Source of the DNA: Planctomycetota bacterium
GTDB taxonomy: Bacteria > Planctomycetota > UBA1135 > UBA2386
Assembly: GCA_016794425.1 (NCBI GenBank)
Contig: JAEUHR010000053.1
Coordinates: forward strand, 62,001-126,000
Reading direction: 5' to 3'
Length of the DNA: 64,000 nt
In this document: one piece after another, positions 7,571 through 17,229 of the stretch
Numbering within the stretch: the first letter of the stretch is position 1
Layout of the letters: the number at the start of each line of letters is the position of its first letter
The notes under the pieces: model-generated
Databases searched by the model: none
What the model was told of the DNA's origin: nothing
The model's input: the letters and a program-made list of their open reading frames with translations, nothing else
Made by a program: the position numbers and the translations under genes

Positions 7571-7584
7571 GATTCGCGAGAATC
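7571..7584. repeat. Short perfect inverted repeat in tkt/sigma-factor divergent region
   Basis: GATTC-GCGA-GAATC lies about 70 bp upstream of the sigma-factor fusion gene and 125 bp upstream of tkt. It could be an operator half-site pair or chance; no protein can be assigned. The AT-richer patch just before it (about 7528-7555, with a TGGACA box) is the most promoter-like stretch in the gap. Confidence 0.25.
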
Positions 7585-7651
7585 CTGCATCAGCGGCCGG
7601 CCTTCGTGCCACGGTGCCGGCGTGGCGACCAGCGACAGCCCCGAACCCCGC

Positions 7652-10651
7652 ATGGACGACCTGCTGCGGCAGACGCGCTGGCTGCACCGGCTGGCGCGCG
7701 CGCTCGGCGCCGACGAGGCGCTGGCGCACGACCTCGTGCAGGACACGTTCCAGCAGGCGCTGCGGGACCGGCGCGGCGGCTGGCGCGACGTGCGCGCCGT
7801 GCTGGCGACGATGCTGCGGCGGCGGGCGCGCCGCTGGCTGCGCCGCGAACGGGAGCGGCCCGCGGTCGAAGCGCGTGCGGGTGCGGTGGCGGCGGCGCCG
7901 GCGACCGACGAAGTGGTGGTGCAGGCGACCGTGCACCGCGACGTCGTCGACGCCGTGCTCGCTCTGGGCGAGCCGTACCGCACGACGATCCTGCTGCGGT
8001 TCCTGCAGGACCTGTCGATCCACGACGTCGCGCACCGCACCGGCGTGCCACTCGCGACGGCGCGGTCGCGTGTGCAGCGCGGCCTCGGGCAGCTGCGCGA
8101 ACGGCTCGACCGCTGCTACGGCCGCCGCGATGCGTGGCTGGCGCCGATCCTCGGTGGCGCCGCCGCGCGGCCGCTGCTGCTCTCGATGGTGTTCTGGATG
8201 AACAGCAAGCTGATCGTGGCCGCGGCAGCGGCCGTCCTCACCGCCGGCGTCGTGCTGTGGTCGTCGTCGCCGGAGCCGGTCGCGCCTGCACCCGGGCCGG
8301 TGGCCGCCGGTGGATCGTCGGCCGCGGTGCAGGGCAGTGCACCGAGCGGCCTGCCGGCGGCCGGCGAACGCGAGGCCGTGGCCGCGGCCGCGGCGGCTCC
8401 GGCGCCTGCCGCGCCGGTGCTCGCCGTGGCGTTCGGCACCGTCGTCGACGAGGAAACGCGGTTGCCGCTGCCCGGCGTCGAGATCACGTGGAGCGCGCGG
8501 TACCACTTCCTGGCCCAGGCGATGCCCGCGGTCGTCAGCGACCACGCGGGGCGCTTCGAACTGCCGAGCACGGTCGCGGCGCCGCACGAGACCGGCGATC
8601 TGCTGTTGCGCCGAGCTGGCTACGCGTGGTTGCGGCACCCGCTGGCAGCGGCGCCGACCGGGGCGCCGCGGCGCTACGACGCGGGCGTGGTCGCGCTGCC
8701 GCCGGGCACCGGGGTCGCCGGCATCGTCGTCGATCCGGCGGGAGCGCCGGTCGCGGGCGCCGACCTGTTGTTCTTCGACACCACGTACTGGGTCGAGGAC
8801 GGCCGCAGCGTGATGCTCGACTGGCCGCTGGTGGCCGGTCGCAGCGGCGCGGACGGCACGTTCCGGCCGCCGGAACGGTTGTTCAGCGTGCAGGACGCCG
8901 TGCTGCTCGCCGCGTCGCCGCGCGGCATCGGCTGGCTGCCGGTGCCGCAGCTGACGCGGACGCGCAGCGAGGCCGAAGGGCTGCGCATCGAACTGCGTCC
9001 GACGGCGACGCTGACCGTGCGCGTCGAAGGCACCGACGGCGCGCCGATCGAAGGCGCCGACGTCGTCGTGCTGCCGCGGTTCACGCCGCTCGGCCATGGC
9101 AACGGCGGGCGGGCGACGGGGCCGCTGCCGCCGGCGCTGGCGGCGGTGTTCGCGGCGCGCACCGCCGCCGACGGCCTCGCTGCCTTCGCGGCGCTGCCGC
9201 TGGCTGCGGCCGCCGCGCCGTACCGGATCAGCGTGCGGGCTCCGGACCACATCGAGGCGGAGGTGCCGATCGAACTCGGCGCCGAGCCGCGCCGGCAGAC
9301 CGTGGTGCTGGGGCGACCGCGGCGCGTCACCGTGGTCGGCAGCGTGCGCGACGCGCGCGGCGCGCCGATCGTCGGCGCGGCCGTTCGGTTCGGCCGGCCC
9401 GAGCGCGACCGCGACGTCGACGCGGTCAGCGACGCCGAGGGCGCGTTCGCCGGCACCGTCGAACTCAGCGGTCCGGTGCTGCGCGCGACGGTGCAGGCGA
9501 ACGGGTGGCGCCGGACGGCCAACGAGACCGGCGTGCCGGCGACCGCCGATCGCGTCGAGGTCGCGTTCGTGCTCGAACCGGCCGCCGTGATCCGGGGCCG
9601 CGTCGTCGACGACCGCGACGTCGGCATCGAAGCCGCGACCGTGATCGCGGTCGGCGAGCACACGTCGTGCACGACCGATGCCCAGGGGCAGTTCGAGCTG
9701 CACGAGGCGCCCGCGGACCGGGCGGTCGAGATCTCGGTGATGCCACCCGGCAACGAACTCGACTGGGTCGGCACGGCCGGCCAGTCGGTGCCGCCCGGCA
9801 GCGGGCCGGTGACGCTGCGCCTGCTGCGTGCCGGCACGTGCCGGCTCGCGGTCGAACTCCTGGCCGCCGACGGCTCGCGCCTCGAGGCGCGGCGGCACCA
9901 GCTCGAGTACGGCGACGGCACGTGGTTCCCGTCCGAGGCGACGCTGGGGCAGGTGGTGGCCGAACGGCTGCGGCCCGGCCGCTGGACCCTGTTCGTCGAG
10001 CCGGTGCGCGGTGCTTCGCTGGTCGCCGAGTTCACGATCGCGCCCGGGGACGTGGCGCACGAACAGACGCTGCAGCAGGCGCCGTCGGCGACCGTCGTCG
10101 GCGTCGTCGAACCGGTGCCCGCGGACCTGGCGCTGCCGTCGACCCTGCGCGTGGCCTGCGGCTACCGCAACCGCGGCCGCTTCGTGCCGGATGCGCACCA
10201 GAGCCTCGATGACGACGCGCTGCGGCTCGACTCCGCGCACGGACGCGGCTTCCGCCTCGAAGACGTCGATCCGACGCGGCCGCTGGTCCTGTTCGTCAGC
10301 GGCGGCGACCTGCTCGGCCGCGCCGAGGTCGCGCTGCGCTCCGCTGGCGAGACCACGGTGCGGGTCCGCGTCGCCCGCGCCGGCTCGGTGCGCTTCGTCA
10401 GCGACGCGCCGTGGCCGCAGGACGAGCTGCGGTTCTGGCTGCATGCCGACGGTGCCGCCGCCGGCAACGGCGACCACGCCACCGGGCTGCTCGGCCGCAC
10501 CGAGCTGCTCGAACTGCCGTTCGCGGCCGGGTCGTGGCGCTGGCGCGTCGAGTTGCCGGCACCCGCCGGCACCGCGCCGATCGTGCGCGAGGGCGTGCTC
10601 GAGGTGCGGCCGGGGGAACGCTGCGACGTGCACCTCGTGGTGCCGCGCTAG
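7652..10651 (+). CDS. Membrane-tethered ECF-like sigma factor fused to carboxypeptidase-regulatory-like domains
   Basis: A 999-residue fusion. Residues 5-68 look like sigma-70 region 2 (DLVQDTFQQAL, basic tail), residues 98-152 like region 4 with the helix-turn-helix DVAHRTGVPLATARSRVQRG. One hydrophobic helix (about 187-204) follows, then a Pro/Ala linker and about 750 residues with at least five repeats of the carboxypeptidase-regulatory/Cna-B type (pattern G.VVD..G.P..GA.V). Reading is uninterrupted from sigma to repeats. ATG 7652 is chosen; GTG 7622 is in frame and adds ten residues. An internal ATG at 8198 (MNSKLIVAAAAAVL) would give a normal signal-anchored protein, so a second translation product is possible. 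Predicted topology puts the sigma part in the cytoplasm and the repeats outside. Confidence 0.8.
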   Translation: MDDLLRQTRWLHRLARALGADEALAHDLVQDTFQQALRDRRGGWRDVRAVLATMLRRRARRWLRRERERPAVEARAGAVAAAPATDEVVVQATVHRDVVDAVLALGEPYRTTILLRFLQDLSIHDVAHRTGVPLATARSRVQRGLGQLRERLDRCYGRRDAWLAPILGGAAARPLLLSMVFWMNSKLIVAAAAAVLTAGVVLWSSSPEPVAPAPGPVAAGGSSAAVQGSAPSGLPAAGEREAVAAAAAAPAPAAPVLAVAFGTVVDEETRLPLPGVEITWSARYHFLAQAMPAVVSDHAGRFELPSTVAAPHETGDLLLRRAGYAWLRHPLAAAPTGAPRRYDAGVVALPPGTGVAGIVVDPAGAPVAGADLLFFDTTYWVEDGRSVMLDWPLVAGRSGADGTFRPPERLFSVQDAVLLAASPRGIGWLPVPQLTRTRSEAEGLRIELRPTATLTVRVEGTDGAPIEGADVVVLPRFTPLGHGNGGRATGPLPPALAAVFAARTAADGLAAFAALPLAAAAAPYRISVRAPDHIEAEVPIELGAEPRRQTVVLGRPRRVTVVGSVRDARGAPIVGAAVRFGRPERDRDVDAVSDAEGAFAGTVELSGPVLRATVQANGWRRTANETGVPATADRVEVAFVLEPAAVIRGRVVDDRDVGIEAATVIAVGEHTSCTTDAQGQFELHEAPADRAVEISVMPPGNELDWVGTAGQSVPPGSGPVTLRLLRAGTCRLAVELLAADGSRLEARRHQLEYGDGTWFPSEATLGQVVAERLRPGRWTLFVEPVRGASLVAEFTIAPGDVAHEQTLQQAPSATVVGVVEPVPADLALPSTLRVACGYRNRGRFVPDAHQSLDDDALRLDSAHGRGFRLEDVDPTRPLVLFVSGGDLLGRAEVALRSAGETTVRVRVARAGSVRFVSDAPWPQDELRFWLHADGAAAGNGDHATGLLGRTELLELPFAAGSWRWRVELPAPAGTAPIVREGVLEVRPGERCDVHLVVPR

Positions 10652-10735: not shown

Positions 10736-11446
10736 ATGCCGCTATTGCTGCTGGTCGCCATGGTCGCGCTCGTCGGCTGGGTCGACGGCGGTCCGTTGCC
10801 GGGCCTACTGGCGGCCGCACTGGCGCTGGCGATCGTGGTGCGGACGGTGCGGCGCGCGATCGACCGCAGCCTGCCGCGCGAACCGTCGGTCGAGCCGCTC
10901 GCCGAGGTCGACCTGCTGCCGGCGACCGCGGCGCGGATCCGCGACCTGCGTGCGCTCGGCTTCGAACCGCTCGGCGGGCCGCACGTGGCGAACCTGTCAC
11001 CGGCACCGGTCGTGGTGCCGTTCGTGCACCGCTCGGCCGGCGTGCTGGCCGCGGTCTACCAGGTGCAGAACCCGGTCGAACGCAGCGTGCTGGACTTCGT
11101 GACCACGTTCGCGTCGGGGGCGATGCTGACGACGGCGAGTTCGCGCGAGGCGGCGACGCTGCCGCTGCCGCCGCGTTGCTTCCTGCAGACGGTGCACGAC
11201 GCCGACACCGCGGCGCTGCTCGAGCGGCACCGACAGGGCATGGCGACCCTGCAACACCGGGGCGAACGGCCGCGCGCGACGGCGGCGACGACGCTGGCCG
11301 AGTACCTGCAGCGCCTCGTGGCGTGCCTGCGCGACCAGCGGGCGGCGTTCGAACGTGCGCCGCTGCGGACCACGCTGACGGCGCTGCTGCGTTCGCTGCT
11401 GCGGCTCGATCCGGCTCGGGGACCGCTGCAGCCGCGGCAGGTCTGA
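10736..11446 (+). CDS. Membrane-anchored protein of unknown function
   Basis: 236 residues. The first 40 residues are one long or two short hydrophobic helices (MPLLLLVAMVALVGW and LLAAALALAIVV), followed by a soluble domain with no motif I recognise. The soluble part resembles proteins in which a membrane-anchored domain compares fluorescence-like 'HRSAGVLAAVYQ...ERSVLDFVTTFASG' segments, meaning an alpha/beta fold with aromatic-poor strands, but no family can be named. It lies 84 bp after the sigma fusion gene in the same direction and is convergent with the next gene. Confidence 0.6.
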   Translation: MPLLLLVAMVALVGWVDGGPLPGLLAAALALAIVVRTVRRAIDRSLPREPSVEPLAEVDLLPATAARIRDLRALGFEPLGGPHVANLSPAPVVVPFVHRSAGVLAAVYQVQNPVERSVLDFVTTFASGAMLTTASSREAATLPLPPRCFLQTVHDADTAALLERHRQGMATLQHRGERPRATAATTLAEYLQRLVACLRDQRAAFERAPLRTTLTALLRSLLRLDPARGPLQPRQV

Positions 11447-11476: not shown

Positions 11477-12433
11477 TCAGGTGCGGTAGGCAACCAGGTT
11501 CGTGGCGCCGAGGTAGCCCGGGCCCAGGCTCACGTGCTGCACGTAGAACAACAGGCCCGTTGGCAGGGTGGGCACCGACAGCTGCCAGCGCCCGGCGCCG
11601 AGCGGGTTGCCGGGCGTGTCGAGCAGCGGTGCGAGCAGCAGATCGTCGCAGCCGTAGCCGAGCCCGAGCAGTCCCGGGGCGAGCCGCGTCGGATCCGTGG
11701 CGACGACGAACGTGGCCAGCGTGCCGCGGCCGTCGGCGACGAAGTCGACGGCGTTGCCGCCCGTGCCTGGCAGCGCGGCGAGGAAGTAGTCCTCGAGACT
11801 GTGTGCCGGGTAGATCCGATTGGGCGTGCAGGCAGAGCCGAAGTCCTTGGCGGAAGGGTGCCAAGGCTCCCAGGCGATGTCCGCATGCATGTAGAGCGGT
11901 GCCGGAACCGACGCGAAGAGGCGGATGCGCACCGGGATCGGCGCGGCCGTCAGGTGGAGTGGAACATGCACGTCGACGGCCATGTCCCAGCTGCTGCCCA
12001 TCGTCGACAGCACGGCGTCGACGGTGCCGTCGTCGAAGACATCGACCGTCGGGTTGCCGGGGAAGTCACCGGTCGAGAACAACTCGATACGCAGGTGGCC
12101 TCGTGTCGGCGGTGCCGACAACCACAGGGTGGTGTCGAGGAACGCGACCGACGGGATCGGATAGGTCGCGTACATGTTGTTCCAGAACCGCCAGCGCCGT
12201 CCCGTGGGTGAGGTCGTCCATCCGATCGCGCCGGCGTACGGTTCCGGCGCCGGCAACGTCAGCGTACCGTTGGCGGGAATCGGACCTGCCGGGCCGCTGG
12301 CGCTGTAGGTGCCGCTCGGAACGGTGGCACTGACCACGAACGGTGTGTTGGCGACGAGGCTCGTCCGTACGTCCTGTGCGGCGAGCGAGGCGATCGAGGC
12401 TGCGACCACGAACGGGATGGCGGCGTGCGACAT
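11477..12433 (-). CDS. Secreted protein of unknown function
   Basis: 318 residues with an N-terminal signal peptide (MSHAAIPFVVAASIASLAAQ, cleavage likely after AQ). The mature part is rich in beta-strand, Pro and Gly. Its C-terminal segment (LGYGCDDLLLAPLLDTPGNP ... GLLFYVQHVSLGPGYLG) resembles a C-terminal module that recurs in many secreted proteins of high-GC planctomycetes; I infer this from pattern memory. The frame extends 19 residues upstream, but the signal peptide fixes the ATG. GC bias is visibly weaker than in the adjoining isc operon. Located 78 bp downstream of fdx on the same strand. Confidence 0.65.
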   Translation of the reverse strand: MSHAAIPFVVAASIASLAAQDVRTSLVANTPFVVSATVPSGTYSASGPAGPIPANGTLTLPAPEPYAGAIGWTTSPTGRRWRFWNNMYATYPIPSVAFLDTTLWLSAPPTRGHLRIELFSTGDFPGNPTVDVFDDGTVDAVLSTMGSSWDMAVDVHVPLHLTAAPIPVRIRLFASVPAPLYMHADIAWEPWHPSAKDFGSACTPNRIYPAHSLEDYFLAALPGTGGNAVDFVADGRGTLATFVVATDPTRLAPGLLGLGYGCDDLLLAPLLDTPGNPLGAGRWQLSVPTLPTGLLFYVQHVSLGPGYLGATNLVAYRT

Positions 12434-12511
12434 GGAGTTCTCCGATGAGCCGACACCGTAGCGTCCGGCGGCGTGCGGGGGGATGCGCACGTCGACGGGC
12501 TTCGGCTGCGC

Positions 12512-16014: not shown

Positions 16015-17229
16015 CTAGTGCACGGTCCACTTGACCTTGCTGAGGTCGACGCCCTCCTGGACCATTTCCCAGAGCGGCGACATCTCGCGCAGGCGCTTCA
16101 CCTCCTGCACGACGCGGTCGACGGCGAAGTCGACCTCGGCTTCGGTCGTGAAGCGGCCGAGCGAGAATCGGATCGAGCTGTGCGCCAGCTCGTCGCCGAG
16201 GCCGAGGCTCTTCAGCACGTAACTCGGTTCGAGGCTCGCCGACGTGCAGGCGGAGCCGGACGACACCGCCAGCTCCTTGACGCCCATGATCAGCGATTCG
16301 CCTTCGACGTAGGGGAACGACAGGTTCGCCAGGTGCGGCAGCCGCGCGTCGGGGTCGCCGTTCCGCACCGCATCGGGCAACTGCGCGAGGATGCGCTGTT
16401 CGAGCCGGTCGCGCAGTGCGCGCAGCTTCGGCACCTCGGTCGCCATCTCGGTGCGGCAGATCCGCGCGGCCTCGCCCATGCCGACGATGCCGGTCACGTT
16501 CAGCGTGCCCGAACGCATGCCGCGCTCGTGGCCGCCGCCGTCCATCTGCGCGACCAGCCGCACGCGCGGGTTCTTGCGCCGCACATAGAGGCAGCCGACG
16601 CCCTTCGGGCCGTACATCTTGTGTGCCGACAGCGACAGCAGATCGATGTGCTGCGCCTCGACGTCGAGCGGGATCTTGCCGGCGGCCTGCGTCGCGTCGG
16701 TGTGGAACAGCGTGCCCTTCTGCTTGCACAGCGCGCCGATCTCGGCGAGCGGGTGCAGCGTGCCGATCTCGTTGTTCGCCGCCATCAGCGACACCAGGAT
16801 CGTGCGGTCGGTGATCGCCGCCGCCAGCTCGGCCAGATCGACGTGGCCGCGGCCGTCGACCCGCAGCCAGGTGACCTCGAAGCCCTGCGCCTCGAGGTGC
16901 TTCATCGGATCGAGCACGGCCTTGTGCTCGGTGGCGGCGGTGATCAGGTGGTTGCCCTTCGGCCGGTACATCTCGGCCACGCCCTTGATCGCGAGGTTGT
17001 TGGCCTCGGTCGAGCCGCTGGTCCAGAGGATCTCCTTCGGGTGCGCGCCGAGCAGCTGCGCGACCTGGTCGCGGGCTTCGTCGACGGCGGCTTCGGCGGT
17101 CCAGCCGAACGCGTGGCTGCGGCTGGCCGCGTTGCCGAACGTCTCGCTGAAGAACGGCAGCATGCGCTGCACGACGCGCGGGTCGCACGGCGTGGTCGCG
17201 CTGTAGTCCAGGTAGACGGGGGTCTTCAT
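16015..17229 (-). CDS. iscS: Cysteine desulfurase IscS
   Basis: 404 residues. PLP enzyme that removes sulfur from cysteine and hands it to IscU as persulfide. Seen: YLDYSATTP start, the [13 protein letters not shown]-stacking His, the PLP lysine in [12 protein letters not shown], and the mobile-loop catalytic cysteine in [17 protein letters not shown], which is the long-loop group I (IscS/NifS) form. Its C-terminal KVKWTVH differs slightly from the proteobacterial ending. ATG overlaps the iscR stop by 4 bp. Confidence 0.97.

Follow-up and report, generated by a model that had tools for sequence, protein, structure and literature searches.

A membrane-tethered ECF sigma factor with an extracytoplasmic beta-sandwich array in Planctomycetota, and a family-level signal for internal translation initiation

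The window, that is, the whole analyzed stretch of 64,000 nucleotides, contains a gene in which an ECF-type sigma domain, a transmembrane helix, and an array of beta-sandwich repeats are encoded in a single open frame. The gene and the elements associated with it are the following.

7581..7612, + strand, promoter-like motif, a weak match of 8.7 bits to the ECF-type element of the family (EM motif, 182 regions)
7622..7624, + strand, GTG, likely full-length start (1009 aa), at the onset of the family profile and 10 nt past the promoter-like match
7652..10651, + strand, sigma-transmembrane-beta fusion gene, 999 codons plus stop (ORF scan, Pfam)
7652..8119, + strand, ECF sigma domain, regions 2 and 4, residues 1-156 (Pfam, NCBIfam, AlphaFold, Foldseek)
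8120..8167, + strand, juxtamembrane segment YGRRDAW..., family motif [YH]GGxRxxW, with a short helix (alignments, AlphaFold helix)
8186..8188, + strand, ATG, alternative internal start, in frame
8198..8200, + strand, ATG (MNSK), putative start of a sigma-less product, in frame, no GGAG upstream (family statistics)
8204..8263, + strand, transmembrane helix or signal anchor, residues 185-204, Lys on the cytoplasmic side (hydropathy 2.1, AlphaFold helix)
8264..8419, + strand, Ala/Pro-rich linker, disordered over residues 205-251 approximately (pLDDT <50 for residues 201-251)
8420..10636, + strand, extracytoplasmic beta-sandwich array of CarboxypepD_reg or transthyretin-like repeats (Pfam, AlphaFold, Foldseek)

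A reading of the letters alone (below, the sequence-only reading) had placed the fusion in one unbroken frame beginning with ATG 7652. The unbroken frame was confirmed, but the full-length start is likely GTG 7622, 30 nt upstream, because the family profile begins there and the promoter-like match lies 10 nt before it. Upstream lies a divergent transketolase gene, and the two downstream ORFs, 10736-11446 (+) and 11477-12490 (-), have no Pfam match. Thus no recognizable anti-sigma gene adjoins the fusion gene, as that reading had noted, and no protease gene adjoins it either. An anti-sigma domain between the sigma domain and the membrane helix was ruled out, since only about 30 residues separate them, a gap that is conserved over the family.

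Pfam, NCBIfam, and AlphaFold agree on the proposed order of sigma regions 2 and 4, one membrane helix, and five or more carboxypeptidase-regulatory repeats. The window protein matches the NCBIfam sigma70-ECF model (3e-14) and Pfam Sigma70_r4_2 (residues 97-148, 1.3e-7) above their cut-offs and Sigma70_r2 (residues 9-67, 5.8e-5) just under the cut-off, while CarboxypepD_reg is found in five stretches (1.6e-25). In the AlphaFold model of residues 1-208 (mean pLDDT 88.8), the sigma helices occupy residues 2-156, and ECF sigma factors lead its Foldseek matches, with a TM-score for region 4 of up to 0.88 of the target. The Sigma70_r2 match slightly below the Pfam cut-off would fit a sigma-like domain that is no longer a sigma factor and serves, for example, in DNA binding or as a scaffold. 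However, D27 and Q30 of region 2 and several residues of region 4 are near-invariant in the family alignment, the fold matches that of ECF factors in transcription complexes, and an ECF-like promoter motif precedes the family genes, making loss of sigma function very improbable. By profile and fold the protein is an ECF factor, for which sigma activity is predicted.

The hydropathy and the Lys preceding the membrane helix place the sigma domain on the inner side of the membrane and the beta array on the outer side. The beta strands span residues 258-995, forming an array of 740 residues; the Foldseek matches of the whole model are pilins, Cna-B repeats, a grappling-hook protein, and Ig arrays, and a sequence search of the beta part against the PDB gave no match. 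The models thus point to a surface-type beta array, with no specific function indicated by the structure matches. These data confirm that the window protein combines an ECF sigma domain, one N-in membrane helix, and an outside-facing beta array in one chain. The short juxtamembrane helix covers residues 159-168 in the 208-residue model and 159-172, at lower confidence, in the whole model. A motif, [YH]GG(D)RxxW...LLPL, is strongly conserved family-wide between sigma region 4 and the membrane helix, and could possibly be a docking or autoinhibition element.

The same fusion was sought in relatives, as the sequence-only reading had suggested, and 38 of 41 gave matches. In total, 183 distinct sigma-transmembrane-extension fusions with an identical layout were collected, which makes the fusion more than a chance event, and a frameshift or an assembly artefact as its source is ruled out by this conservation. 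The fold, the membrane helix, and the conservation in many genomes together bear out a membrane-tethered ECF sigma factor. The genome of the window (G000, 5.4 Mb) carries about 11 further copies. The sigma-plus-transmembrane profile matches all 151 genomes of the class that were tried at E<=1e-10, a threshold that includes some ordinary ECF factors, and 44 of 199 genomes across the phylum at 1e-30. In a contig scan with a three-sequence alignment, the named fusion loci belong to Planctomycetota, a few having other or doubtful bin names. The C-terminal extensions fall into two length classes, of about 0 or of 400-1050 residues; the sequences without an extension are ordinary sigma factors or are cut by contig ends, except for one short but complete frame, L266, possibly the result of a frameshift. 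Nearly every fusion has a predicted transmembrane helix (median hydropathy 2.06), and CarboxypepD_reg is present in 21 of 24 sampled family members. Six matches, of which five fall in long frames, were obtained in Rohdeia mirabilis Pla163, as against 71, about 68 in long frames, in Saltatorellus ferox Poly30. The Poly30 chromosome CP036434.1 (G339; loci L359-L388) thus shows an unusual expansion specific to its lineage; the species is in culture, and its genome sequence is complete. A stand-alone, sigma-less homolog of the outer part of the window protein, starting with MTMWFKLL, was also found (L037, G011:C256:96118-98412); it adjoins a divergent Ser/Thr kinase gene.

The ECF classification includes in-silico reports of ECF factors whose extensions contain transmembrane segments, and the bare fusion was possibly noticed there earlier; to our knowledge, neither the dual-start signal nor the private promoters described below are known from that work. 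In ECF41, ECF42, and ECF238/CorE (PMC8103513), a C-terminal regulatory part is fused to sigma2-sigma4 and a separate anti-sigma factor is lacking; the present family resembles them in this respect. It differs in the nature of the extension: instead of the SnoaL_2, TPR, or metal-responsive CorE type, the family has a membrane helix followed by 400-1000 extracytoplasmic residues, as well as an internal start. In the extension of the window protein, no Pfam match to SnoaL or TPR was found, the matches being to CarboxypepD_reg behind the membrane helix.

The regions upstream of the family genes share a two-block element, roughly TTYCyTGmATC-N13-GCGGCAT, which EM motif finding recovered from a set of 182 regions (log-likelihood 646 versus 123 for shuffled regions). 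Scores above 10 bits were obtained in 112 of 182 regions versus five shuffled ones, the model having been trained on the sequences that it scored. A score of at least 8 bits is reached by 13 of 182 shuffled regions (7%), so that the window match is weak when taken alone. In the 2.86 million strand-bases of loci that were read, strong matches occur 44 times before fusion starts and seven times elsewhere; at least four of these seven also precede family members (L004, L045, L171, L238), and the one in L067 probably precedes a tandem copy. One match, at window position 16053, lies inside an apparent other coding region. The element of one subgroup occurs about once per genome, before its own gene. 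Matches to the family element in Poly30 are weaker, with 3 of 24 exceeding 10 bits. The start codon mostly follows the motif at 7-18 nt, leaving little room for a leader, and a Shine-Dalgarno sequence precedes just 24 of 178 sigma starts. Since the primary start thus mostly lacks a Shine-Dalgarno sequence and follows a shared ECF-promoter-like motif, these observations suggest autoregulation by the encoded sigma factor and a near-leaderless mRNA. Other targets of the encoded sigma factor, with degenerate spacers, are possible.

The sequence-only reading had also raised the option of two products from one gene, the shorter starting at ATG 8198. Across the family, the junction between the sigma and membrane parts has the features of a translation start. 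A Met occurs within eight residues before the transmembrane Lys in 71 of 98 junctions (7.8% expected), and Lys is preferred over Arg (90:8) despite the GC-rich genomes. In the control set of Ser/Thr kinase-transmembrane junctions from the same genomes, Met occurs in 1 of 26 and the Lys:Arg ratio is 8:18, which rules out composition as the cause of the Met-Lys pattern. GC content and predicted mRNA structure dip at the internal start codons (-5.8 versus about -13 kcal per 40 nt). GGAG stands exactly at -12 in 20 of the 71 internal Met starts, the Gly codon at -4 is GGA in 25 of 28 cases versus 13% elsewhere, and codons -5 to -3 are biased at p=6e-21. When the junctions of all 183 genes were scanned for GGAG-N7-9-RTG, 60 occurrences fell in frame 0, one in frame 1, and two in frame 2, with a spacing of 8 in 53. 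The signal occurred 14 times in 40 loci belonging to other families in the phylum, in frame in every case. Synonymous resampling that preserved the proteins yielded 9.5 +/- 2.9 genes with the signal, whereas 50 were observed. A start with a Shine-Dalgarno sequence is present in 69-71 of 160 fusions and neither element in 21 of 160, in a tally that favors candidate starts with a Shine-Dalgarno sequence; the -12 GGAG and Gly-codon test, the 183-gene frame scan, and the resampling are independent of this preference. As the family sequences are related, the counts are not independent; at 60% sigma identity they form 137 clusters, 38 of them with the signal.

From codon choice, frame bias, and the excess over resampling, selection on the nucleotides for translation initiation at the junction is strongly supported, and a second product is its best explanation. 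By these sequence statistics, the family-level signal is an internal ribosome-binding site with a start codon in the coding frame, and most family genes should also yield a sigma-less membrane protein. Alternatively, only the full-length protein is made, and the Met/Lys and GGAG are either a ribosome-pausing signal aiding membrane insertion or a relic of a two-gene operon. Pausing at Shine-Dalgarno-like sequences before transmembrane segments has been proposed in general, and the stand-alone sigma-less protein L037 is compatible with an origin by fusion. Pausing needs no start codon, yet ATG or GTG stands at a fixed 8 nt: in junctions without Met, the Val there is encoded by GTG in 17 of 19, and GGAG followed by RTG at 8 nt is 16 times commoner in the junction (53/164) than elsewhere (50/2525). 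A relic, in turn, would not retain the synonymous GGA across paralogs that are about 40% identical. We therefore consider production of the full-length form alone to be improbable, and internal initiation likely, for the family.

For the window copy, internal initiation is uncertain, since it has no Shine-Dalgarno sequence and its promoter match is weak. GGAG is absent from the internal start in all 12 copies examined in the genome of the window, this one included, and the ATG is kept in only six of them. These losses would fit decay of the internal start in the window copy, which would then make the full-length protein only, while its relatives make two. Against decay, ATG 8198 is kept before MNSK and a hydrophobic segment, and the 40-nt mRNA window there (-9.2 kcal/mol versus a gene mean of -16.5) is weaker in structure than 97% of the windows of the gene; a start codon in a weakly structured region can probably suffice where Shine-Dalgarno use is low. 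We give decay a little under an even chance. Thus the two-product proposal gained nucleotide-level support for the family, where it is the best-supported new feature, and is left with an ATG and weak structure in the window gene. The dual start thus characterizes the family and may have become weaker in the window copy.

Combining these observations, we moderately favor the following model, in which the fusion, the membrane helix, the fold, the family, and the family internal-start signal are well supported, while we infer autoregulation, the near-leaderless mRNA, proteolysis, what the short form does, and initiation at the internal start of the window gene. An ECF-type promoter belonging to the gene would direct synthesis of a near-leaderless mRNA, from which the full-length protein would be translated; the cytoplasmic sigma domain of this protein would be tethered through one N-in helix to the outside-facing beta-sandwich array. 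Most members would also use a second start, often led by a Shine-Dalgarno sequence and situated immediately ahead of the membrane helix, to yield the outer part as a sigma-less, signal-anchored protein. The outer part would sense or build an envelope structure, and a signal would free or un-block the sigma domain, most likely by regulated intramembrane proteolysis; the sigma factor would then activate, at a minimum, the gene that encodes it. By diluting or competing with the full-length form, the sigma-less form would set the ratio of structural to signaling subunits.

Both proteolytic release and action from the membrane are plausible for such a protein. ToxR and CadC are membrane one-component regulators that have a cytoplasmic transcription domain, one helix, and an outer sensor in one chain, and the tethered sigma factor might likewise act directly from the membrane. 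The layout is indeed similar, but here the output is a sigma factor, the outer part is a long beta-sandwich array, and two products are often predicted. The conserved gap of about 30 residues between the sigma domain and the membrane and the lack of an adjoining protease gene fit such direct action; against it, sigma factors have to bind core RNA polymerase and afterwards leave it, homologs of site-2 proteases, which are near-universal, are present in the genome of the window, and pro-sigma-K, a membrane-associated sigma factor released by the intramembrane protease SpoIVFB, provides a precedent for release (PMC11486902). On balance, we regard action without release as the less likely of the two and tentatively prefer proteolytic release. 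The likeness to pro-sigma-K consists in the attachment of a sigma factor to the membrane, predicted here from the helix; pro-sigma-K has an N-terminal pro-sequence and no sensor domain, and it is not an ECF factor.

For the two products, a close parallel is the in-frame two-product phage lysis gene, in which one gene has an internal ribosome-binding site and start with a shared stop, and the short C-terminal product can form heteromers with the full-length one, in assemblies of 1:3 or 1:5 full-length to short (PMC9430671). Unlike those enzymes, the full-length protein here carries a sigma factor, and the predicted short form starts with a signal anchor.

More tentatively, we suggest a one-gene switch, present in up to about 68 copies per genome, that would combine a tethered sigma factor made from the near-leaderless start with a sigma-less receptor twin made from the internal Shine-Dalgarno start, each sigma factor acting mainly on the private promoter of its own gene, so that many surface proteins would switch themselves in parallel. 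The proposed system would add a large class of sigma factors that act as their own membrane receptors with no need of a separate anti-sigma factor, and internal initiation in cellular genes would be programmed, at the nucleotide level, across a whole family. It would also bear on how Planctomycetota handle very many ECF sigma factors without adjacent anti-sigma factors, and is directly testable in the cultured S. ferox Poly30.

Finally, protein kinases are numerous in these genomes, with 73 matches to PF00069 in the genome of the window and more than 100 in several relatives, and some of them stand near fusion genes (for instance, at G015:C99).
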